Origin: Chaetoceros tenuissimus
Lineage: Eukaryota > Bacillariophyta > Thalassiosirophyceae > Chaetocerotales > Chaetocerotaceae
Assembly (NCBI GenBank): GCA_021927905.1
Contig: BLLK01000020.1
Coordinates: 1 to 64,000 of the forward strand
Reading direction: 5' to 3'
Length of the DNA: 64,000 nt
The stretch's first letter is position 1. Each line of letters begins with the position of its first letter. The notes under the pieces are model-generated. The model saw nothing but the letters and a program-made list of their open reading frames with translations. It was not told where the DNA came from and ran no database searches. A program made the position numbers and the translations under genes. This document shows, piece after piece, positions 41,308 through 56,060 of this stretch.

Positions 41308-43590
41308 ATGCGTCAAATTGTGAAGAAGGAAGGCGACGAAGAAGATATCTTTCCAAACAGACAAACAGTAGATCTACAAGTGCAAAGTAATCCCAACGCT
41401 GCTACCGACTTCCATGATGAAGAAAAAGATGCTATGAATATTCTAAAATCAAATGAAACACGAGATACTTTCAAAGAACTCATTGATGGATATGAAAACG
41501 ATGAGGGTGAATACATTGACATGAGTCAACCAAGAGGCGCTTCCTATTCTGTAAAAACAAAAACTAATCTATGGAATGGGAACAACATTGTGAAGCGCAC
41601 ATCTAGACTGGGACGAGATGCGAATCTTTCATCAAGGATACCAAACAAGGTCTTAGATATTTATCAAACTGTTACAACATCTGGACATGATTTACATAGT
41701 TTTAGATCCATGCCTATCGAGTTTAGAGGTGTCACTCTTCGACAACTAAGAGCTATTATCCCATTGATTAAACGCAGATGCGAAGAAGAAAACTGGACCC
41801 GTCCAATTTACAAAAATGGTGTCGAGACTGATGATTTTGAAAGAGTAACTCTGGAGAATGCTACAATGTATGATGTCAACGAATATATCATCAAGCCATT
41901 CACACAGTATTCTCAACAGTCGTTCATTGAAACACTACCATCGACAAAAGGTACACAGCCACCTATGGTTTGTCAGGTAAGTAAAAGATGCTACATTTTC
42001 TTCACTTCCCCAAAAGAAGGAACTAATGAATTGTATCAATAGCCATACTTGGGGTGAGCCATTCATTCACACTCTAGCATGCTTAGAGTGTTTAGCCCTT
42101 GATTTTGAAGCAAATTCTTCTACTAGAGCTAACAATGACCATGAGAAACGATGTGGAGGTATGACGGAGAATACTCCTGTTTGGATATATGCCTTTCCAG
42201 GCAATCAACATGATCATGAAGATGGACTGACTAGTAATCCTGTGTATTCGTCAGTCACAAAAGCTTTGGGGATTGCAGATTTTCGCTTCATGTTCATTTT
42301 AGATGTAAAGGCAGAAGTATTCAGTCGTATGTGGTGCCTGTATGAGTTGTACTTGGCGTTAACTCTGTCGAATGAGGATGGTATTGAGTGTCAACTTGGA
42401 ATATATCTCATCATGAGCATTCGCTTTGCAAATTTGATTATGCTCAAAGAATAGAAGACAAAGCGAGGTATGCAATAGGACTCATTGAAGGTGGCTGTAC
42501 AAGCGATTATTCTTTGTACTCGTCTATGCAGAGGCGACGTCATTTTCCACTACAGCGTTTAATCAAATCTTGGTCGACCTCCATTCAAGATACAATAGCT
42601 TCTAATGACAGTGACCGCAAACATATTCTAAATGCAATAGTAGGTCAGAAAGATGAAGATATGGAATATCTGATTTGTGATCACGAGAAGTACAAGGACT
42701 TTAATGATATTGTGCAGAAAGCTCTTTCCCGTTTTTTAAATGGACCTCCTATAACTCCTCTATCTTTGAACCAATTAAAATCAATTCAAACTTTGTCTCG
42801 GTTATCAATTGCGCATTGCATGGATCTTGATGAACAGTCTAGAATCGATTTGATGTGTTTATTCAAACTCTCCAAGGCAGATATCCTGAGTATTTGTTAC
42901 GAGGACGATTTCGAAGATAAGCAAAAGCAACAACAACTACTCTGTATACAACAAGAACAAGGAATGCATATTGGCTTCATGAATTTTGGGCAACATGATA
43001 CTGTAAGAATGTTTCATGAAAATTCTTTGCCAACTGGGTCATTATGTTTAGGTATTATAACTTATCCATATGGGCGAGAAGTAATGGACTCAGTCCTAGA
43101 TTGGCTTGAGAATACGTCTCCTCCTAATCTCGGCATGGCGGGGACATGTATTGGTTGGGAAATTGGTGGGAAGGAATGTGGCGAACGACTGGCAAGATTC
43201 TTAGCTAGAGAGGATTGCAATATAAATATGCTCCTTTTGAGTGATACTGATTTGATCGGATCGAGGAATGTGGGCACATGGATTGAATGTGTGAAAAGGA
43301 GTTGCAGCTAAAGGAATGGCTAAAAGTGTACAAAGTATGGATAGAAGTGGGGAATCTAATAGTTCATTTGATCCAAATTACAACTTCGCAGTCCCTGGTA
43401 TAGGTGGTATTATCTATTGGATGGAACCACCTTCCCAGATGCGACAATGTCAAAAGAGCAAGAAGAAGCATTTAAGGCAACATCATCTCCAGATAAAAGT
43501 ATTCATATTGGAACTTTTGTCGTGAAGAGGAAGAAGAGATTCTTAAATCTGTTTTCAAAGATGATTTCAAAAGACCAAAATATCAGTGCT
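41308..43590 (+). pseudogene. SHxWGE (TIR-like) plus LRR-like family member, copy A, frame-broken
   Basis: Closely related to copy B at 54013-56060 along its whole length. Exon 1 runs from about 41308 to 41976 (GTAAGT donor). The intron is 66 bp and exon 2 starts at 42043 after 'caatag'. Seen: the leading conserved block (RGVTLRQLRAIIPLIKRRC); then SHTWGEP across the intron; WIYAFPGNQHDH; ILDVKAEVFSRMWCLYELYL; the DRKHILNAIVGQ helix; and an LRR-like tail (CGERLARFLARE). Against copy B the frame is broken four times: two bases missing just before the conserved Trp (about 41964); one base missing near 42406; a stop at 43309-43311; and one base missing near 43420 in the tail. The first two sum to three, so the reading frame returns. 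Probably a recent pseudogene; assembly errors cannot be excluded from sequence alone. Confidence 0.75.
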
Positions 43591-43838: not shown

Positions 43839-44200
43839 TTAACACTCCTCTTCATTCAGCTGGCCTAGTAATTTCAAAATTCGTGTCTGACTTTCTTCCA
43901 AAGATGCTAAAGTAGAATTCACATCTTGAAACCCTCTCGTATATTTCTTTTTGTTCTTAATTGCTGTATTTTTTAGATCCTTCACATGGTTCTCTATTGT
44001 ATCCATTCTACCTTCTACATTTCTACTTTTGTTCTCTATTGGTCCATCGAATACATTTGAATAAATAGCAACAAGAATGATGAGAGGTGAAGCTATCACA
44101 AGTCCTCCCAAAATAATTGATGCAATTGACCATGCCGCAATATTATCTTTGATACCAGAAATATCGTTTCGACGAGGTACTCCAACAATGACTTTGCGAA
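43839..44200 (-). pseudogene. 3' end of the ankyrin/TRP-like channel gene, severed by the copia element
   Basis: On the - strand from 44200 the frame reads without a stop to TAA at 43839. It encodes a basic stretch (KVIVGVPRRNDISG), a hydrophobic span (SIASIILGGLVIASPLIILVA) and a helical, probably coiled-coil tail (EGRMDTIENHVKDLKN). It joins in frame to the other part at 50875-51025 if the element and one copy of CGAA are removed: 151 + 362 bases = 171 codons including the stop. The Met that opens the isolated frame here is therefore internal, not a real start. The stretch 43591-43838 beyond the stop is 3' flank shared with the convergent pseudogene. Confidence 0.8.
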
Positions 44201-44365
44201 TGAGAAAATCCCACTGTTAGGTTGGTAGATTATGAGAACCCGAATTCTTCACCCGAATTCTTCACCCGAATTCTGTTGGAGAATTCTTCTATGTTTTTGA
44301 TCAGAACTTTACATATTTTACATAACATAATTCTTATTTTGATACGAAACAACTCTATCTTTTCA
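44201..44365 (+). repeat. 5' LTR (165 bp)
   Basis: Starts TGAGAAAATCCCACTG and ends CTATCTTTTCA. It contains three 'cccgaattct' steps where the 3' LTR has two; otherwise the two LTRs are identical by eye. Very short for an LTR. Confidence 0.92.
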
Positions 44366-44721
44366 GTTTATCAATACCCAATAGCTCTAACCAAGAAAGA
44401 AATTTATGTAAGTGAATATTTGTTTGACTAGTGACAGTTTGGTGTGATTATACCTCGCATGCTGCTTCGGCCTCTGCAATGAAGGTGCACAAACTGATGA
44501 CATATCAAACGAGGTCCGAATATGAAACGGATAATGGAAAGTACTTGTGTTATACAACACAGTACACCTCGGCTCACGGATGGAAAGAACCTCTCTATTT
44601 AAACCTTATGTTTATAGAGAGCCCAACCAATAGCTTAGAACTCAGTCTGATCAACTGGAGTTATGGTTGGGAGCTCAGCAGAAGCCTATGGAGCAAGTAA
44701 CCGTGTGAGCATTCCTATGGA
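44366..44721 (+). other. Leader between the 5' LTR and gag
   Basis: An 89-codon frame inside it (44431-44700) has no gag-like features. No tRNA-complementary primer-binding site was recognised immediately after the LTR (gtttatcaataccc). This is the expected place for packaging and primer signals. Confidence 0.5.
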
Positions 44722-46440
44722 ATGAAATCAAAATATTTTGCTAATAAAATTTTCCAAATTTACCAAATAAATAGAATGGACGATGTTCCAACTTTCACTG
44801 CATTTGTGCAAAATGTTCTAGGCGTAGCCGTTGTAAGAGCTCGCACTGAACTTGTTGCTTATATTCCAACATTTAGAAGATTGATGACAATCTCAGAAGA
44901 AGACATTGATAGATTCATTTCACAAGTCCATTCTTCCAACTCTGGTCGTGCTGCTGCTCAGCGTATTGTCTATGGGCCTGCTTTGGCTGCGAATCTTAAG
45001 GCATTATCTTTCACTCTTAAAGATAGAGCAAACTGTAATGCTCTCTACGATGCTGCAGGTCTTGCTGCCTTGGATCAAGCCCAGTTAGCTCTCATGCAGA
45101 ATTATCGTGACCAAGCACTACAAGATAAAGATAATGATGATGCTGTAACTCTACCAGATATCGATGTGCCAAAGTTTACTACAGACAATTATGATGATTT
45201 TATGGCTAAATTCCTAACTGTCATCTCACGTACAAAAGGTGTATATGGCGTATCTATCGATTACATTATTCGTCAAGCTGATGGAAATTTCAATGACATT
45301 CATCCAACTCGAAAGTTGAAGATGAGAGCATGTTTGGCCAGAAGAGGTCCGAAATTCCAAGAAGACTCCAAGACTCTCTTTGGCTTGTACCTCCAGTACA
45401 TTGGTACAACAGGACATGGAGCAAATCTTGTGAAACAGTTTCAACCTCGTCATCAAGGCTTTAATTTGCACTTTGCTTTTGTTAACCACTTTGCAAATGC
45501 TACACACCTTCAAAACAAAGCAGCTCAAGCTGCAACAGACTTGACTAAACTGAATTACTCTGGAGATAAGATGCGCTTCAAAATGGAAGATTATTATAAT
45601 CGTATGACACAGTGTTTTAATGACTTAGCAAATGGTGGTGCCCAGTATGCTTTGAATGATCACCAGAAGATCCAGGCCTTCTGTCAGGGATTGAAGAATG
45701 CAACTGCGGTCAGATACCATGTGGATGCAAAGCAGGCATGGGATGCCATCCAAGGACTAAAAGATTTCGATACCTATTACAATTTGTTCTCGTCTAAACT
45801 TCAACAATACCGTACTTTGATAGGAGATGGATCACATACCGACAATAGACGAATCAATAATGTTGATACAGGAGGTAGAGGCAGAGGACATGGTGGACGA
45901 TTTGGAAGAGGAGGTGGTAGAGGTCGTGGTCGTGGACGTGGTAGAGGTAGAGGCTCTTACCACAATAACAATCCTTACCACAATTCCTCAGGTCTTCCTA
46001 ACTTTACTGCAGAGGCTAGGAACTACCCTCAAGAGATGTTTTCCAAGATGTCCAAAATGCAGAAGGCTGCTGTACAACAAGCGAAAATCGATAATGGATG
46101 GAAAGATGGCCGTACACCACCTGATGGCTTTACTGTAAATGGTAACGGTTATGCCATTCCTTCCCCGAGCATTGTTGCTGCGATTCAGTCTCAAATGAAT
46201 ATTAGACAGTTCCAGCAGGTACAGACCCCTGGTGCTGGTACACCACTTCCACCACCACCACCGCCTCCGCCAGCTGCTCCTCCTATTCCTGGAACCATCA
46301 CTACCAATAATGCAGGTCAAGCTTTTGGCTCGTCTGCATCAAGGGGAGGAAATGGTGATGCTTCTAGTATTATTTCTACTGTCAATGGTCGGGCATACAA
46401 TGGACATGTGTATGATGCGAACGGTAATAGAATCTCCTGA
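44722..46440 (+). CDS. gag: Copia Gag protein with RG-rich nucleic-acid-binding tail
   Basis: 572 aa from ATG 44722; a second in-frame ATG at 44776 (MDDVPTFTAFVQNVLG) is an equally good start. The first 370 residues are helical and resemble copia-type capsid regions (DTYYNLFSSKLQQY at the end). About residues 376-416 are an Arg/Gly array (GGRGRGHGGRFGRGGGRGRG and more). Then comes a segment with 'FSKMSKMQKAAVQQAK', a polyproline run (LPPPPPPPPAAPPIPG) and a glycine/asparagine-rich end. No CCHC zinc knuckle is present; the RG array probably replaces it for RNA binding. It ends with TGA and is followed immediately by pol in the same frame. Confidence 0.9.
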   Translation: MKSKYFANKIFQIYQINRMDDVPTFTAFVQNVLGVAVVRARTELVAYIPTFRRLMTISEEDIDRFISQVHSSNSGRAAAQRIVYGPALAANLKALSFTLKDRANCNALYDAAGLAALDQAQLALMQNYRDQALQDKDNDDAVTLPDIDVPKFTTDNYDDFMAKFLTVISRTKGVYGVSIDYIIRQADGNFNDIHPTRKLKMRACLARRGPKFQEDSKTLFGLYLQYIGTTGHGANLVKQFQPRHQGFNLHFAFVNHFANATHLQNKAAQAATDLTKLNYSGDKMRFKMEDYYNRMTQCFNDLANGGAQYALNDHQKIQAFCQGLKNATAVRYHVDAKQAWDAIQGLKDFDTYYNLFSSKLQQYRTLIGDGSHTDNRRINNVDTGGRGRGHGGRFGRGGGRGRGRGRGRGRGSYHNNNPYHNSSGLPNFTAEARNYPQEMFSKMSKMQKAAVQQAKIDNGWKDGRTPPDGFTVNGNGYAIPSPSIVAAIQSQMNIRQFQQVQTPGAGTPLPPPPPPPPAAPPIPGTITTNNAGQAFGSSASRGGNGDASSIISTVNGRAYNGHVYDANGNRIS

Positions 46441-49400
46441 ATGATATGCCAGTTGTTACTGATGACTGGCCTATTTCTCTTGTTCCATAGACTGTTTCGG
46501 GAACTATTGCTTCGTTCCACTTGTACTCCAACTCATGCAATTAGAGCGTTCATTACAACTACCATCTCTGCAACTAGATCATCCTTTGATATTGAATCCT
46601 TTGTGCATCCTACTTTGACTGCAAATGAACATCAGCGTGGTACGAGACTTGGTATCGACTCATGGGCAGATACAAATTGTGCTGGAAAACATGCCTTTGT
46701 CGAAGAATTTGTTGTTGACAAGTTTGTTACTGCTGGTGGATTCAGTGCTTCACTTGGAACCATTCCAGATTTACCCATTGCAAATGTGCTCTACGCTTAT
46801 GATACTGATGATAGCAAGACATACATCATCGAATGCAATAACTCAATATACCTTGGTGATAGGATGGATGACTCTTTGATGAATCCGATACAGGCGGAAG
46901 AGTCTGATGTAAGGGTTGATACGAGACCTAAGCGATATTACTCTGATCCACATGCACAAACCATAAGTTTTCCCTGTGGTACCGTGATTCCTGTAGAATA
47001 TGATGGGGCACTGCCGTTCATTCCTATTCGTCGTCCTACTGCTGATGAAATTCATATCTGTCCAAGACTTGTCATGTCAGCTAAGTTCCCTTGGGATCCT
47101 AGTATTCCTGGTGGTAACTTCTCTCAGCCAAGATCTGTATTCTCTACTTCTTCAAGCATCCTTGATTCAGTGCAAGATGATCCAGTTGGATCTTCTCTCA
47201 TGTCACTGCATCTGCTATCTGCTGTGCAATCAACTTCTATACTCCATCTACATGAGGATACCTTTAAGTCATTACAAGCGATGAATTCGTATAAGAGCAA
47301 AGAAAGTATCAGTCCTGAGGAGTTGGCACGGTTGCTCAAGATCGGCTTGAAGACTGCCCAGAGAACTTTGCAGGCAACCACTTCGAAATTCATTAGAACT
47401 ACTGGTGCTCTCTCTCGGCGTTTCAAGACTGACAAGGCTCAGCTCCGATATAAACAATTGTCTAGAATCTTCGGCAAGTTTTATTGTGACTATCTCAAGG
47501 TCAATGCTACTTCGATTCGTGGATACAAAGGAGGAGTCATCTATACTAATGGACTTGGTTTCTATAAGTTTCTTCCATGTGAAAATGAGACTTCTGAAAC
47601 TACTGGTAGGACTCTTAGGTACTTCCTGCACGTTGTAGGTCTGCCGTATAGTTTGCACTCTGATAACCATGGTAACTTCAAGGATGGACTCTTCAAGAGA
47701 TTGATGAGGAAATTCGGAGTTTACCAGACCTTCACTGAGCCACACTCGCCATGGCAGAATAGGGCTGAGCCAGCCATTGGTGAGGTCAAGAAATACGCTA
47801 GAAAGATTATGATGAGTACTGATACACCTATTCGCCTTTGGTGCTTTTGTTATGAGTATACTGCTGACCTCTTATCACTTCTGGCAACAGCACGGTTCGA
47901 TCTCCAGGGGAGAACGCCGTACGAAATGATTATGCACTACACTCCGGATATCTCAGAATATGTATCATTTGGTTGGTTTCAGTGGTGTTACTACTTTGAT
48001 GAGGACTCCAAAAGTAAGAAGATCTGCCGTTGGTTGGGTCCTGCTCATGAGGTAGGACAGTCTTTCTGTCACTGGATACTCCTAAGCAACGGAAATTTTA
48101 TAGCTCGATCATCTGTCATTCCTATACCGGATCATGACCTAGAGTCCGATGAATTAAAGCGCCGTACCAAGATCTTCATGGATTGTATACATGAGAAAAT
48201 TGGAAATACAAAGGTACCAATCTATAACAATATCTACCCTCAGCGTGTTTATTATGATGCTTTTGACGACCCTGTCGAGGATGATGAGAGTCAATTACCA
48301 TATGGCGAAGAACTGCATGAAGCTAAGCTTGAAGATGTCAATGATAGATATCTCGAGGCACTTGACAATTACATTAATTCTGAGGTCATCATGCCTGACA
48401 AGGATGGTACTGCTGTACTTACCAAAGTGAAAGGTCGTAAGCGTGATGCTGCAGGTAACCCTGTAGGAGAGGCAAATGAAAATCCTATTCTTGATACCAG
48501 AGTCTATGAACTAGAATTTCCAGATGGCAGGATTGAGGAATATGCAGTCAATATGATTGCAGAGAACCTATTTGAGCAAGCTGACGAGGACGGCTGGGAC
48601 AGTGGTATCATTGAGGAATTTCTAGACATTCGCAAGGACGATTCTGTAGCTGTACCCAAAGAACAAGGCACGTACTTTAACAGTGCTGGAGTTGAGAGGA
48701 ACGTTGTAACAACCAAAGGATGGGAAGTCCAAGTCAAATGGAGAGACAAGTCTACGAGCTGGATTTCACTTAAAGACGCAAAGGAAGGTGATCCACTAGG
48801 TCTAGCTGAATTGGCTGTAGCATTGAAAGTACAAGATGAGCCTGCCTTTAAGTGGTGGACCAATCATGCCTTGAGACAACGAGCCCGACTGATCTCAAGA
48901 TTGAAATCAAATGTTATTAGAAAAGGCAAGACTAAGTTTGGGATACAGGTTCCTGGCACATGGAAGGAAGCTGTCAAGATTGATGAAGCAAATAATAATA
49001 CGCTTTGGCAGGACGCCATCAATAAAGAAATGGTCAATGCTAAATGTGCTTTCAAGTTATTGGCTCGAGGAGATAGACCGCCGCCTGGGTACAATGAGAT
49101 ACTGTGCCACTTGGTATTCGATGTCAAGCTGGATATGACTCGAAAAGCAAGATATGTTGCTGGAGGACACTTAACTAACGTTCCCGCAAATATGACCTAT
49201 TCTAGTGTTGTCTCAAGAGATACAGTCCGAATCGGATTCCTTGTGGCTGCTCTTAATGACCTTGATATATTAGCTGGTGACATCCAAAATGCTTTTCTTT
49301 CTGCTCCTACCGAAGAGAAAATATTCTTCTATGCAGGAGATGAATGGGGTGCTGACAAGGACCGTGTAGTCGTTGTAGTCCGTGCTCTATATGGTCTCAA

Positions 49401-50670
49401 ATCTAGTGCTTTACAATTTCGTAATCATCTTGCTGCAACACTTGGTAACAAGCTTGGTTTCAAGTCCTGTCTTGCTGATCCTGATCTATGGTACAAAGCA
49501 TGCATCGATTCCGATGGAAATGAGTATTACTCATACATTCTCGTATATGTTGATGACCTGTTGACTATTGATAAGAATCCGAAGCGATTTATGGAACAGA
49601 TCCAAGGTGACTTCACTGTCAAGAAGGAAAGCATCGGTCCTCCTGACAGATACCTAGGAGCTGACATCAGAAAAGTTGAGGATGATGGTGCCAAGCCATT
49701 TTGGACTATGAGTTCTAATTCCTATCTTGACAAGGCCATTAAGAACCTTAAGGCTAAGCTCAAGGAGAGCGGTTTGGAATACAACAAGAAACTTTCTGAT
49801 CCGAATTACAGTCCAAAGCAACCATTTACTACTGCATCTTATCGACCTGAACTTGATACTTCTGAAGAATGTACTGATGACCAAGTTACTCTATTTCAGA
49901 ACCTAATTGGGATATTGCGATGGGCAGTAGAACTTGGTAGGATCGATATTGGATATGAGGTATCAGTTTTGTCTAGATATTTAGTTTCACCAAGAACTGG
50001 ACATCTCTTACAAGCCATTCATGTATTCAAGTTTCTTGACATTCATAAGGACAACGAGTTAGCCTTTAGACCGAATTTGCCAAATCTAAGTCTCAATCAC
50101 GAGGAGATCAATGAACAGACAACGTATATGAAGAAGGCATATCCTGACACTGTTGAAGATTTACCTACTAACGCACCTGTCCCAAGAGGGAAACCATTGT
50201 CCATGTATGTGTTCGTGGATAGTGATCATGCTGGTGATAAGGTAACTAGGAGATCCCAGACCGGTATTCTATTATATCTGAATTCTGCTCCAATTATTTG
50301 GTATTCTAAGAGGCAAGCAACTGTTGAATCATCTACCTTTGGATCCGAATTTGTCGCACTCCGCGTTGCATCTGAATTGATTATTTCTATGAGATATAAG
50401 CTTCGTATGATGGGAGTTCCAATTGAGGGTCCGACTCATGTCTTTTGTGATAATGAGGCTGTTTACAAGAATTCTTCAATTGCTCATTCAACTTTGAAGA
50501 AGAAACATAATTCTATTTGTTTTCATCGAGTACGAGAATGTGTTGCTGCTGGTATCCAAGTTGTACACAAGGTTGACACTGCTGACAATTTATCTGACAT
50601 TCTAACGAAATCATTGCCTGCTCATATTAGGAAGAACCTACGATCCTTAATCATGTATATCAGGAACTAA
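46441..50670 (+). CDS. pol: Copia Pol polyprotein: protease, integrase, RT, RNase H
   Basis: 1409 aa, same frame as gag after one TGA; the first codon after the stop is ATG. Protease: GIDSWADTNCAG with the catalytic Asp at residue 73. Integrase core: D350 (KFYCDYLKV), D408 (HSDNHGNF) and E443 (PWQNRAEP). A chromodomain-like stretch follows at about 755-790 (GWEVQVKWRDKSTSWISL), a feature I recall from algal copia elements. RT: DILAGDIQNAFL, RALYGLKSS and the YVDD site at 1036-1039. RNase H: FVDSDHAG (Asp 1260), ESSTFGSEFVAL, FCDNEAV and DNLSDILTKSLP at the end. All catalytic residues I looked for are present, so the protein may be active. Expression after gag needs readthrough or re-initiation. 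Confidence 0.95.
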   Translation: MICQLLLMTGLFLLFHRLFRELLLRSTCTPTHAIRAFITTTISATRSSFDIESFVHPTLTANEHQRGTRLGIDSWADTNCAGKHAFVEEFVVDKFVTAGGFSASLGTIPDLPIANVLYAYDTDDSKTYIIECNNSIYLGDRMDDSLMNPIQAEESDVRVDTRPKRYYSDPHAQTISFPCGTVIPVEYDGALPFIPIRRPTADEIHICPRLVMSAKFPWDPSIPGGNFSQPRSVFSTSSSILDSVQDDPVGSSLMSLHLLSAVQSTSILHLHEDTFKSLQAMNSYKSKESISPEELARLLKIGLKTAQRTLQATTSKFIRTTGALSRRFKTDKAQLRYKQLSRIFGKFYCDYLKVNATSIRGYKGGVIYTNGLGFYKFLPCENETSETTGRTLRYFLHVVGLPYSLHSDNHGNFKDGLFKRLMRKFGVYQTFTEPHSPWQNRAEPAIGEVKKYARKIMMSTDTPIRLWCFCYEYTADLLSLLATARFDLQGRTPYEMIMHYTPDISEYVSFGWFQWCYYFDEDSKSKKICRWLGPAHEVGQSFCHWILLSNGNFIARSSVIPIPDHDLESDELKRRTKIFMDCIHEKIGNTKVPIYNNIYPQRVYYDAFDDPVEDDESQLPYGEELHEAKLEDVNDRYLEALDNYINSEVIMPDKDGTAVLTKVKGRKRDAAGNPVGEANENPILDTRVYELEFPDGRIEEYAVNMIAENLFEQADEDGWDSGIIEEFLDIRKDDSVAVPKEQGTYFNSAGVERNVVTTKGWEVQVKWRDKSTSWISLKDAKEGDPLGLAELAVALKVQDEPAFKWWTNHALRQRARLISRLKSNVIRKGKTKFGIQVPGTWKEAVKIDEANNNTLWQDAINKEMVNAKCAFKLLARGDRPPPGYNEILCHLVFDVKLDMTRKARYVAGGHLTNVPANMTYSSVVSRDTVRIGFLVAALNDLDILAGDIQNAFLSAPTEEKIFFYAGDEWGADKDRVVVVVRALYGLKSSALQFRNHLAATLGNKLGFKSCLADPDLWYKACIDSDGNEYYSYILVYVDDLLTIDKNPKRFMEQIQGDFTVKKESIGPPDRYLGADIRKVEDDGAKPFWTMSSNSYLDKAIKNLKAKLKESGLEYNKKLSDPNYSPKQPFTTASYRPELDTSEECTDDQVTLFQNLIGILRWAVELGRIDIGYEVSVLSRYLVSPRTGHLLQAIHVFKFLDIHKDNELAFRPNLPNLSLNHEEINEQTTYMKKAYPDTVEDLPTNAPVPRGKPLSMYVFVDSDHAGDKVTRRSQTGILLYLNSAPIIWYSKRQATVESSTFGSEFVALRVASELIISMRYKLRMMGVPIEGPTHVFCDNEAVYKNSSIAHSTLKKKHNSICFHRVRECVAAGIQVVHKVDTADNLSDILTKSLPAHIRKNLRSLIMYIRN

Positions 50671-50710
50671 CATTGTGATGCGAATTATTGAAATTGAAAT
50701 TTAAACATTC

Positions 50711-50718
50711 GAGGAGAG
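50711..50718 (+). other. Polypurine tract
   Basis: 'gaggagag' ends one base before the 3' LTR, the normal position for the plus-strand primer of reverse transcription. Confidence 0.75.
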
Positions 50719-50870
50719 TGAGAAAATCCCACTGTTAGGTTGGTAGATTATGAGAACCCGAATTCTTCACCCGAATTCTGTTGGAGAATTCTTCTATGTT
50801 TTTGATCAGAACTTTACATATTTTACATAACATAATTCTTATTTTGATACGAAACAACTCTATCTTTTCA
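50719..50870 (+). repeat. 3' LTR (152 bp)
   Basis: Same ends as the 5' LTR and identical by eye except for lacking one 13-bp unit. It is followed by CGAA, the target duplication. Confidence 0.92.
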
Positions 50871-53721
50871 CGAAAGCCTTCAGATGGAGGAATGATCTCA
50901 TTCCATTGTGCCACTAGAAAGAAGGCATGTATCCGCTCCACTAAATCAGGCATTTGGTGTTCTTGATCTGTTCTTTCAAACCAATGAATGAGCTTAAAGC
51001 AAGAAGAGGGGTAGCCTTTATACATCTATTTCGAATACGAATCACTGTTATCCCATTGTGTAAAGATTCTTCGTTTAGGAGTAATCTTGCTTGGAGAACT
51101 CATACAATCCATTGCTTTTACACCCAGCAATCCTTGCATTTCAACAATAAACCTGAGTCGTCCTAACCAAAAGGCATATTCGCTATTATCTTCAACCTTT
51201 TTGAAAGAATCATTCACCACAGCAATGAGAATGTTAAGTAGAATGATTCCAATGACCGCCGCAAAGATAAAGGAGAGTGTTGACCTAAGTCCTGACGGAG
51301 AATCAAAGAAAAGAAAGTCGCCGCTAAGAAGCATGGCGAAGGAATGGAAGTATGAGTCGTTCAATGAGCATGTCCATGTTTGATATTCATCTCTCAATTC
51401 CTTTACTGATGTGATACTTTCATCGAGACAAGATACATTGGATAGAGGGCCAGCAACGTGAAACATGTGGGCGAATGATATGACAATGATGGTTGTTACA
51501 AATATGAATGGTAAGAGATGTTTTGTGATCTAATAGAATAAAGAAGGACAGCTGTTAGTATATGAACAATGAGTAATACAACGATGCGAAAGCAACTTAC
51601 TGATTCAAGTGCACTGAGAAAAACTTTCACTTTGTATATTACATTGCTGCACACAAATATCAATCGCAGCCATGAAATTCCAACGCAGAAGACCTGTAGA
51701 TGCAACAGATTGATATCAACAATATCTCTCAAGAAAGTGCATATCATTAGGTAAATCTGAGTTAGATCTATTACGTTCGAAACATCACTAACATATGCCC
51801 AAAAGTTGGATGAGTAGAACTGTATCGCCTCACGAAGAGTTATCCAAAGAAATGAAAGAAGGAATAATATCCAAGTTGTGGCACTGAAGTTCATATTCTT
51901 GTCAATGTTAAACGAATATTCCCAGACAACTACTATTTGGACCAAAATATCCAATAGTATCACAGCTCGCACAATAGGTTGACTCATCTGATTGTTCAAA
52001 ACGGTCCACACATAATTTCCTTTCAGGGTATCTATTCTCTGCTTCTTTGGGAGATCCCGGATGCATTTCAGAGTTGCATGTTTCTGTTTAGCATCTTTCT
52101 TACTATTATTGCTCCTATCGTGAGGCAATTCATATCCATTTGGATCATGCTCGTACATGTATTCTTGCAAATGGATAATTTGTTGGGATGGATAATTAGT
52201 TCGTTTCTTGATCATACAGTCAAGTGGGTAATCTCCATCTTTCCCAATTTCAAAAGAAGCTTTCTTACTAGCAAGAAGGTCAATTACCTCCAAAGGTGTC
52301 GACGACGATGTGTAATGCAGTGCATTATTCCCTTTGCGATTAATAACATACCAATCATCTCCTAGGACATCGATAAATGTTCTAATAATTTGAACATCTA
52401 CGTTGTTCTTCACACAGTAATGGATAATTGAATTCCCCATGTCATCTTTTACTTTTAGTAAGCGCTTGCCCCCAACTTTCATCAAGAGACTAATGGTATC
52501 AAATTTCGCTTCTGCTGTGGAGCAAGCAACGTGCAAAATGCTCTTATTTTCATATTCCTCCAACTTCGATCGCACATGATGTGTAATCATAGTTCCACCA
52601 CCCAGATCAGTGAAAGGCATTAGCATGTTTGAAAACAACCCTCGTGCACATATTTTAAATAGTGCATTGATAACTTCATCACAGTCTATCTCATTTTGTT
52701 TCTTGTATGACTTCAAAAGAATTTCCAAAACAGAAGGATCAATACTGCGTGCGCATATAAAATGAAGAGCAGTATTTTTCTTTTTAGTCCCCATTCCAAC
52801 GATTTCGTGATGACCTCTGTTCACCAGCAGCTGAATTATCTCAGGTCTAGCATTGTTGTAGCAGGCATGATGTAGAGCTGTCCACCCATCAACAGTCTGC
52901 ATTGATACAAGGTCAGAAGGACCCTTCTCTAGAAGAATGTTGACTATGGACGAATCAGCGTCGGATCTACATGCATAGTGGAGAGAAGTGAAGTTGTCTC
53001 GATCGCAATCGGCAACAAGATTAGCTCCTCCACCTTTCTCAATAAGTAATTCAATTACTTCACGCGATGCTGAAAATGAACATGCACATCCAAGAGCATT
53101 CCTTTGTTCTCGATCTTTTTGAACAATGATTTCATCGCCGGCTATCTCGATAATTTTCTTTACTATTTCAAGTGTAGAATCAACAGCATAGAATAGGGCA
53201 TTTTGACCAATGTTATCAGTAGACCAGAGTAAGTCTTTCCCACCAGCATCAATCAAGTACTTGAGAATATCTAAAGGTGCTCTTTTCCGAAAAGCAACTT
53301 GAATAAGATTGCGACCTTTATCATCTCTATATCTTGTGAGCAGTTTCTTTATCAAACGTCGATGCTTCTCCTCACTATGATGTTTGCTACTTTTGAGATG
53401 CTCATCTACATCATCCCATGCTCTATTATGAAACCAATTTGGTGTTTTTGTCATGGAGTTTAGAGCTTTGAGAAGTTCACGCAACTTTACTCTAAGTTCT
53501 TTATCAATAGTGTTACTATCTAGAATAGAAGTCGTCGAGGACTCATCATCGCCATCAAAACCATGTATCAAAATCGGATCAATGTTTTTATCATTCATTG
53601 CAGGAGATCCTTCTGCTTCTTCTTTTGCACTTCTTTTGCGGTCTTCAGCATCTGGAACATTTTGAGGATTGTCATCAAAGCCATCCTCAGTACTACCAAT
53701 GAGATCAATTACTTCACCCAT
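50871..53721 (-). pseudogene. Ankyrin-repeat TRP-like cation channel, main part, truncated by the copia element
   Basis: Exon 1 is 53721-51601 (707 codons); the intron is 71 bp (GTAAGT...CTATTAG); exon 2 starts at 51529. Seen: an acidic N-terminus; about eight ankyrin repeats at roughly 140-540 (e.g. NFTSLHYACRSD, GWTALHHACYNN, NTALHFICAR, NNALHYTSSS); then several membrane spans (IVRAVILLDILVQIVVVW; ATTWILFLLSFLWITL; LLPFIFVTTIIVISFAHMF). A pore-like loop (YFHSFAMLLSGDFLFF) precedes a last span (FIFAAVIGIILLNILIAVV). This is the ankyrin-six-helix-pore order of TRP channels. An in-frame TAG at 51026-51028 falls exactly at the 3' end of a possible 96-bp intron (51121-51026, GTAAAA...AATAG, multiple of three). 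With that intron the gene is intact except for the copia insertion and would encode about 1013 aa; without it the gene also carries a nonsense codon. Confidence 0.82.
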
Positions 53722-54012: not shown

Positions 54013-56060
54013 ATGTGGCAGTGTTGCTCTTCCAATGATGATGTGGTTGTAAATACAATCGAAAAAGAACAAACAAGTGACGAAGATATCGTCGAGGAAA
54101 GAGGAGGTCCAAAGAAGAACCCAAACGAATGTTCCGATGTTGGTGAGCGTACACCAAGTACAAAAGAACTCAGTACAAATGATCAAAACTATAACGAGAA
54201 AAAATTTAAGGAAGATTTCAAAGAGCTTATTTATGGATATCAAGATTGTGTGGGTGGATTTGTTGATATGAGTCGACCAAGAGATGCTTCCTATGCATCA
54301 AAAACAGAGCTTCAATTTTCTAGGAGAGGAAAATTGAAAATACTCAAAAAGAAAAGGCTTGGAAATGATGTAATTGGTCTGTTTAGTTATAGAAAGTTTT
54401 CTCTGTCCAGTAACAGAACCATGCCTACCGAAGTCAGAGGTATCACACTTCGACAGCTCAGAGCAATCATTCCGTTGATCAAACGCAGATGCAAAAAAGA
54501 AAACTGGACTCGTCCAGTTTACAAAGATGGTGTCGAAACTGATGAAGTAGAGAGAGTTACTCTCGAGAATGCTACATTGTATGATATCAATGAATACATC
54601 ACCAAGCCATTTACAAAGTATTCTCAAAAGTCATTTGTAGAAACATTACCATCCACAAAAGGTACACAGCCTCCACGATGGTTTGTAAGGTAAGGTAGCT
54701 TTATGCAAGTTGAATAAATATCCTTTGAAACATACGTTATAACTGACTTTATTCATTTATCCTCATTAGTCACTATTGGGGTGAGACTATTGTACATACA
54801 ATGGAATGCTTAGAGCAGATGGTGGAGGACTTTACAAGAAATTTTTACTACAAAGAAGACGATGAAAGAGGAGGTGGAATGACTGAAGACACACCTGTTT
54901 GGATATGCGCATTTGCAAATAACCAACACGATCTCAAGTCTGAAATTACATCCAATCCAGCTGACTCGGCCTTTGCCAAAGCTATGAGCATTGCAAACTT
55001 TCGTGTCATTTCTATTCTTGATGTGAACAATCAAGTGTATAGTAGATTGTGGTGTATGTACGAGTTGTACTTGACACTGATTCTATCAAAGGAGCAAGAC
55101 ATGAATGGTTTGCTAGCTATCTATACTTATCATGAGCATGGTGTAGAAGAGTATTTGAGTCCAAGTTATTTGAGTAAAACTATGCAGAAGTCTGCAGTGG
55201 GACTTGTTGACGGTCAACCTACAAACATTTCTTATGGGTACTATGAATCTCTAAATCATTTTCCAAAAGAACGCTTTTTCAAATCATTGTCCATTTCAAT
55301 CCAAGATACAAAAGCTTCTCGAGATGATGACCGCAAACATATTCTAAATGCATTAGTTGGTCGGCGTGGTGATGATATGGAACTTGAACCTTTAAAGGAT
55401 CATGAAAATTATGAAACAATCAATAATGCTGTACGTGGTGCAATGACATGTCTTCACTTCGCTGCTTCCGATGATAGAAAAAATGGATACTGGGATGAGA
55501 TTTTGCATGCAATGAAACATTCACTCACACAGAGTAGTATTGAATTTCATAATTACTTGGACGGTTTCAAGGCAGAAGATGTTGTTGATTTATTTCACAA
55601 TTTACCAATTGGACTGGAGCAACACAGGATATCAAATTGTCCTCATGGAAGAGTCGCAATGGATGCATTCCTTGACTGGCTTGAGAATACATTAACCAAT
55701 CTCAAGAAACTTTATATATTTGGGACATGCATAGGTGGAGAAGTTGGTGGTAAAGAATGCGGTGAACGACTTGCAAGATTTCTTGCTCGAGATGTTTGCA
55801 AAATTGACGGACTTATTTTGCATGAAACTGATCTTGTTGGATCAAGAAATGTCGATACATGGATTGAATGTTTGGAGAAAAATCAATCTTTGAAATATGT
55901 GAAGTTTAGAGGTATGGTTAATTTTGTAAAGTATGTTGGAGAGTCTGAGCTCCCCAATACATCCATTAATGTACCTTTAGGAGACGACAGTGGTAGCGGA
56001 ATGGCCAGTGATCGTCAGAAAAAGCACATTATCCATATGCAATCATTTCAACAGTATTGA
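54013..56060 (+). CDS. SHxWGE (TIR-like) plus LRR-like protein, copy B, intact, 2 exons
   Basis: Exons are 54013-54689 and 54770-56060. The 80-bp intron (GTAAGG...CATTAG) splits the Ser codon of the SHYWGE motif. The product is 655 aa, or 685 aa from the in-frame ATG at 53923. Order: a variable N-terminus (MWQCCSSNDD); a conserved block with RGITLRQLRAIIPLIKRRC; TQPPRWFVSHYWGE near 218-231; VWICAFANNQHD; ISILDVNNQVYSRLWCMYELYL; a helix 'ASRDDDRKHILNALVG'; then LRR-like repeats (LYIFGTCIGGEVGGKECG, FLARDVCKIDGLIL, LKYVKFRG). I recognise the SHxWGE ... ANNQHD ... ILD ... WC.YE order from many algal proteins. A TIR-like fold is inferred, because the first strand, the Trp-Cys and the Glu-rich helix fall where TIR boxes would. 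A sensor or signalling role is only a guess. The C-terminal 30 residues differ from copies A and C, which keep a WDGTTFPDA tail. Confidence 0.78.

Follow-up and report, generated by a model that had tools for sequence, protein, structure and literature searches.

A young copia insertion in what was a coding exon of the diatom Chaetoceros tenuissimus, and the 4-bp target duplications of its relatives

The window examined here (the whole stretch of 64,000 nucleotides at positions 1 to 64,000 of contig BLLK01000020.1 from Chaetoceros tenuissimus) includes a complete copia element that separates two parts of a minus-strand reading frame and is flanked by a 4-bp duplication. A target duplication of 5 bp is usual for Ty1/copia elements, though it is not a defining requirement. 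The locus raises the questions of whether the 4 bp are genuine and shared by related elements, and of whether this insertion was what broke the host gene.

The insertion site and the host gene

The element (44201–50870, plus strand, 6,670 bp) lies antisense within the last exon of an ankyrin/TRP-like gene, and the features of the gene and of the insertion site are:

51601–53721, minus strand: host gene exon 1 (ORF; Pfam Ank_2, E=2.8e-34; exon limits from paralogue alignment)
51530–51600, minus strand: host intron, 71 bp, GTAAGT..TTAG (GT-AG), phase 0
50871–51529, minus strand: host exon 2, segment upstream of the insertion (paralogue alignment, PF00520)
51026–51028, minus strand: in-frame TAG (paralogue alignment)
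50871–50874, plus strand: target-site duplication, right copy, CGAA
44197–44200, plus strand: target-site duplication, left copy, CGAA
43839–44200, minus strand: host exon 2, C-terminal part severed by the element (paralogue alignment)
43839–43841, minus strand: host stop codon

The junctions read ..TTTGCGAA/TGAG on the left and TTCA/CGAAAGCC on the right, and the CGAA reported at both ends by the first-pass annotation is a perfect 4-bp duplication, 5 bp giving no match. Exon 2 is interrupted at 50871/44200, and when the sequence from 50871 is spliced in silico to that ending at 44196, removing the element and one CGAA, the frame remains open to the stop at 43839; the host frame hence provides the independent confirmation of a 4-bp duplication that had been claimed for it. 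Three paralogues (C32:3606855, 3611043 and 3614986; L003–L005) align through the junction at 36–39 % identity, each as a single open exon, and the junction falls in a conserved stretch (NEIIPPSEGFRKVIVGVPRR in the window, NEIIPPSKGMVKVIAGTHRR in L003). They also have an intron at the position of the 71-bp host intron, and two of them (L003 and L004) share the EC-stop ending of the host gene. The earlier identification of 43839–44200 as the channel C-terminus was thus upheld, and both chance and a wrong C-terminus are excluded. Both insertion flanks are single-copy in the assembly, other matches being short and only 70–74 % identical to the paralogues, and a search of the assembly (41.03 Mb, 68 contigs) with both flanks found no empty allele. 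That the copia element is young and complete, and that it occupies an exon which was once coding, is supported.

Exon 1, read from 53721 to 51601, encodes the N-terminus, ankyrin repeats of the kind present in the TRPA/C/V/N types and the first transmembrane helices, and the part of exon 2 upstream of the insertion encodes the pore and an S6-like region followed by the beginning of the C-terminal region. The match of the host protein to PF00520 (Ion_trans) is below the cut-off (19.8 bits versus 25, E=5e-4), and a search of the PDB returned weak TRPC/TRPM matches, the best being TRPC6 (E=0.012). On such weak matches, TRP-like is a fair description, one that falls short of proof of a TRP channel. 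The protein resembles the TRPC/TRPM channels in its ankyrin repeats and S6-like LLNILIAVVNDSF segment but differs in having an additional C-terminal hydrophobic helix. The three paralogues are arranged in tandem at C32:3588201–3615420, with copia reverse transcriptase matches nearby.

The first-pass annotation had the element splitting a channel gene. That the insertion alone broke an intact channel is not supported, as an in-frame TAG that was absent from that annotation is found 155 bp upstream of the insertion and directly before the ATG at 51025, between KRRIFTQWDNSD and CFKLIHWFE, both of which align to translated paralogue sequence. The TAG sits where the paralogues have homologous coding sequence, which leaves the ATG unconfirmed as the start of an exon; the previous count of 151 + 362 = 513 bases, or 171 codons, is correct if made from this ATG. 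Past the TAG, 170 codons stay open through the empty site (base composition gives P about 2e-6), so the host frame was under constraint until recently.

The gene may have been broken before the insertion, unless an unusual intron removes the TAG. Short introns that would excise it were tried by hand, and the splices either put the sequence out of frame or take with them the conserved KxxPxRRxFxxWD motif; a phase-0 GTAAAAG..AAATAG splice, for example, would remove the TAG but also this motif, which is conserved in the paralogues, and its loss argues against such an intron. A gene already dead from the TAG, with the insertion having no effect on channel function, is hence a serious possibility, though we rate it at somewhat less than even. 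The in-frame position of the TAG within a stretch translated in the paralogues speaks for it. Against this, the 170 codons remain open and no other lesion was seen, which points to a TAG that is also young. Both lesions look young, and either may have come first. In the disrupted gene, read-through beyond the TAG would append approximately 45 residues from the antisense LTR before a stop is reached.

Anatomy and age of the element

The features of the element, all on the plus strand, are:

44201–44365, plus strand: 5' LTR, 165 bp, TG..CA, three 13-bp units
44238–44274, plus strand: 13-bp tandem unit ACCCGAATTCTTC in the 5' LTR (TRF)
44722–46440, plus strand: gag ORF, 572 aa, ending in TGA
46438–46440, plus strand: UGA stop of gag, in the frame of pol
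46441–50670, plus strand: pol ORF, 1409 aa, with protease-like region, integrase, reverse transcriptase and RNase H
49114–49746, plus strand: reverse transcriptase domain RVT_2 (pol residues 892–1102)
50710–50718, plus strand: purine-rich tract CGAGGAGAG, directly 5' of the 3' LTR and also found in the other copies
50719–50870, plus strand: 3' LTR, 152 bp, two 13-bp units

The two LTRs are identical save for one 13-bp unit, as had been noted, with 0 substitutions and the 5' LTR longer by that unit. Nine other copies of the family have equal numbers of units in their two LTRs and none has three, and the best reading is that a unit was gained in the 5' LTR of the window copy, a gain private among the ten copies compared. 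The gag ORF gave no informative Pfam match; it includes a Gly-Arg-rich repeat (45883–45947), and a zinc knuckle was not found by Pfam.

In pol, RVT_2 scores 47.6 bits against a cut-off of 31.6 (E=2.1e-12), and rve (residues 381–437, E=0.015) is below its cut-off, with the catalytic D, D and E aligning. The integrase precedes the reverse transcriptase, which is the Ty1/copia order. An HHCC zinc-binding motif is usual for Ty1/copia integrases, though not decisive for the superfamily; it is found in many other copia families of this genome and had no match in the window pol, and a CxxC ahead of the first catalytic D is absent from the integrases of the window family and of families K, O, J and Q (see below). 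Based on the near-identical TG..CA LTRs, RVT_2 and the domain order, the element can be assigned to the Ty1/copia LTR retrotransposons (Pseudoviridae).

The absence of substitutions over 152 aligned LTR sites bears out the earlier view that the insertion is recent. With a mutation rate borrowed from P. tricornutum (4.77e-10; PMC6604790), the age has an upper 95 % bound of about 2e7 generations. Heterozygosity in C. tenuissimus NIES-3715 is 1.56 % (PMC8613185), and an insertion dating from the average haplotype split would show zero LTR changes with a probability of 0.09. It is plausible that the window insertion is present in one haplotype only, which is the common state for the CoDi copies in P. 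tricornutum (PMC2806351, PMC8147415). The closest sampled copy shares 99.5 % identity over 3.3 kb, hence the family has been spreading for some time.

Duplication length among the copia families

All ten window-family copies with scorable ends, including that in the window, have exactly 4 bp duplicated (CGAA, CTCG, TAAA, TTGA, TTGT, TTCA, ACTT, CAAA, TCTG and AGGC). Two more copies have no duplication and one other has a replaced 3' LTR tail; a missing duplication would be expected where copies have recombined with each other (compare PMC2806351). Other families were chosen from genome-wide RVT_2 matches, of which 15 loci were taken, and duplications were scored by eye in the reference loci and in three pairs with variable LTR ends (L109/110, L119/120 and L129/130). 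Copies without any duplication were excluded as recombined, an exclusion that leaves the contrast of 4 and 5 bp unaffected because either length would have counted. Two related families also have 4 bp, K in 5/5 insertions (TGGC, GTAT, ACTG, GTCA and GCAC) and O in 3/3 (AAAC, GTAT and GTGC), so that the three families together have exactly 4 bp in 18/18 scorable insertions. In families A, B, D, E, G, N, Q and S, 21 of the 22 scorable insertions carry 5 bp and the remaining one 7 bp, most of the 5-bp families being represented by one to three insertions each. No usable duplication was obtained for families C, I, J, M and R, and J has short repeats only, with no clear LTRs. The real pairings of the 18 left and right flanks gave 18 exact 4-bp pairs and 0 5-bp pairs, and left flanks set against shuffled right flanks gave a mean of 1.1 matches and a maximum of 7. 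The contrast with the usual 5 bp that was drawn from the window copy is, hence, real and common to a group of families rather than a quirk of one copy.

Two further accounts of the locus have to be set against these data. If the 4 bp were an accident of one copy, or the LTR end had been misplaced by one base, the family would truly make 5 bp, the usual length for the superfamily and that of a diatom case, ACAAG, published in PMC2806351. However, the agreement of all 18 insertions in three families stands against an accident, and a misplaced end is countered by the constancy of the TG..CA ends in copies with differing flanks and by the finding that identical scoring gives 5 bp in other families. 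We regard this account as very improbable. A misassembly, in which a repetitive copia copy was joined between unrelated host segments, would draw on the multi-copy nature of the family, where assemblers fail. Yet the flanks share a perfect duplication, the host frame and the paralogue homology run across the junction, and the extra 13-bp unit distinguishes the window copy from the nine copies compared with it, making a misassembly extremely improbable.

The whole account that we favour, recent copia integration with a 4-base stagger into the last exon of an ankyrin/TRP-like gene, is very likely to be correct. The element anatomy, the duplication, the host frame with its homology, and the split of 4 and 5 bp by family were observed directly. 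In this account, a member of a multi-copy family of diatom Ty1/copia elements recently inserted, using its own integrase, in antisense orientation into the last coding exon of a gene from an ankyrin/TRP-like channel family. The integrase of the 4-bp clade would join the element ends to target strands at positions 4 bases apart, a stagger deduced from the duplications, and gap repair would then yield the 4 duplicated bases (CGAA), as against 5 for other copia families of the genome. S1–S6 and the pore are thereby parted from the C-terminal hydrophobic helix and a coiled-coil-like tail, presumably with loss of C-terminal function, and the upstream nonsense TAG is a second lesion in the host frame.

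Relationships, shared traits and known elements

In an RT-RNase H tree of the copia families of this genome, the window family groups with K, O, J and Q with support of 100/100, and the window, K and O families form a clade with support of 83/80, rising to 100/99 when integrase, RT and RNase H are used. Family Q, which has 5 bp, falls in the larger clade around the 4-bp trio. Because the trio sits inside a larger clade with a 5-bp family, we infer that the simplest and best-fitting history would be one in which the common ancestor of the window, K and O families went from 5 to 4 a single time. It is probable that one copia clade in this diatom genome, the one sharing an altered protease motif and an in-frame UGA, switched its stagger from 5 to 4 bases once.

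The UGA at the end of gag is retained in 18/18 window-family copies (L051–L068), in the context UGA CUG/CUU (UGA CUN) in the more diverged copies and UGA AUG in the youngest; the context is UGA CUA in family K and UGA AAA in family O, all in frame with pol, and K has a second stop, TAA, 15 bases after the UGA. This arrangement suggests stop readthrough between gag and pol, which in young copies possibly gives way to reinitiation at UGAAUG. The protease motif DSWADT (46657–46674) is also invariant in 18/18 window-family copies, and the trio lacks the usual glycine of D-S/T-G-A (DSWAD in the window family, DNHAD in K and DNHAN in O), the motifs in J and Q being DGGAN and DSGCD. In the window, K and O families the internal region begins with GTTTATC, directly after the 5' LTR. 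The UGA, the protease motif and GTTTATC accompany the 4-bp trio, and none is a demonstrated cause of the stagger. The idea that integrases of the 4-bp clade have a shorter D-E spacing was rejected, since a residue count gave an equal spacing in family A.

In several 5-bp families (L076–L081) the internal region begins with GGTTATGAGCCCGA or CGCTTCCTCTGCGC, unlike the GTTTATC of the 4-bp families. These starts look complementary to the anticodon and D-arm regions of the initiator-Met tRNA. No relatives of the element were found in viral contigs. A preference for coding exons did not emerge either, since just two of the ten empty sites, that in the window and C27:1215238, lie in an open frame of unusual length.

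The CoDi elements are the Ty1/copia elements of diatoms (Maumus et al. 2009, PMC2806351). By their description in that paper, they resemble the window element in the order of the copia domains, in short LTRs (down to a reported 153 bp), in having recent copies, in a stop or frameshift that separates gag from pol, and in insertions often confined to one haplotype. They differ in that their duplications were called heterogeneous, the example given being of 5 bp. The main-text parts of PMC2806351 that were compared do not describe a strict 4-bp clade. Blackbeard, a copia element of another species, P. tricornutum, is similar by its description there in having a 163-bp LTR and a full-length, haplotype-specific insertion. 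Tca2 of Candida albicans, though fungal, also belongs to Ty1/copia and has its gag and pol separated by a UGA in frame, and the sequence flanking its UGA did not alone direct readthrough (PMC2194720); the comparison here is with UGA CUN in the older window-family copies and UGA CUA in family K.

Insertional mutagenesis by diatom copia elements, copia insertions and haplotype-specific copies are already known, and as an instance of a coding exon broken by a diatom copia element the insertion itself is clear yet ordinary. In the literature searched, main texts in part and without supplementary tables, neither a 4-bp copia clade nor a change in length within a genome is described for diatoms. Because 4–6 bp is often quoted for the duplications of LTR elements, the 4-bp clade is a variant rather than a new kind. 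This range was applied in PMC10886601. With three strict 4-bp families beside a 5-bp relative in one genome, and with young, exact ends, the relatives can be compared and the determinants of the target stagger of copia integrases become testable; a single switch, if true, would provide a natural comparison for the integrase features that set the spacing. Filters demanding 5-bp duplications would overlook 4-bp copia copies.

Elsewhere in the window, two plus-strand ORFs (42526–43311 and 54801–56060) that flank the host gene are alike (SISIQDTxAS..DRKHILNAxVG), and the former looks truncated, which suggests a local duplication. A 239-bp tandem array occupies the first 21.5 kb of the contig (positions 1–21499) and is a candidate satellite of a chromosome end or centromere.
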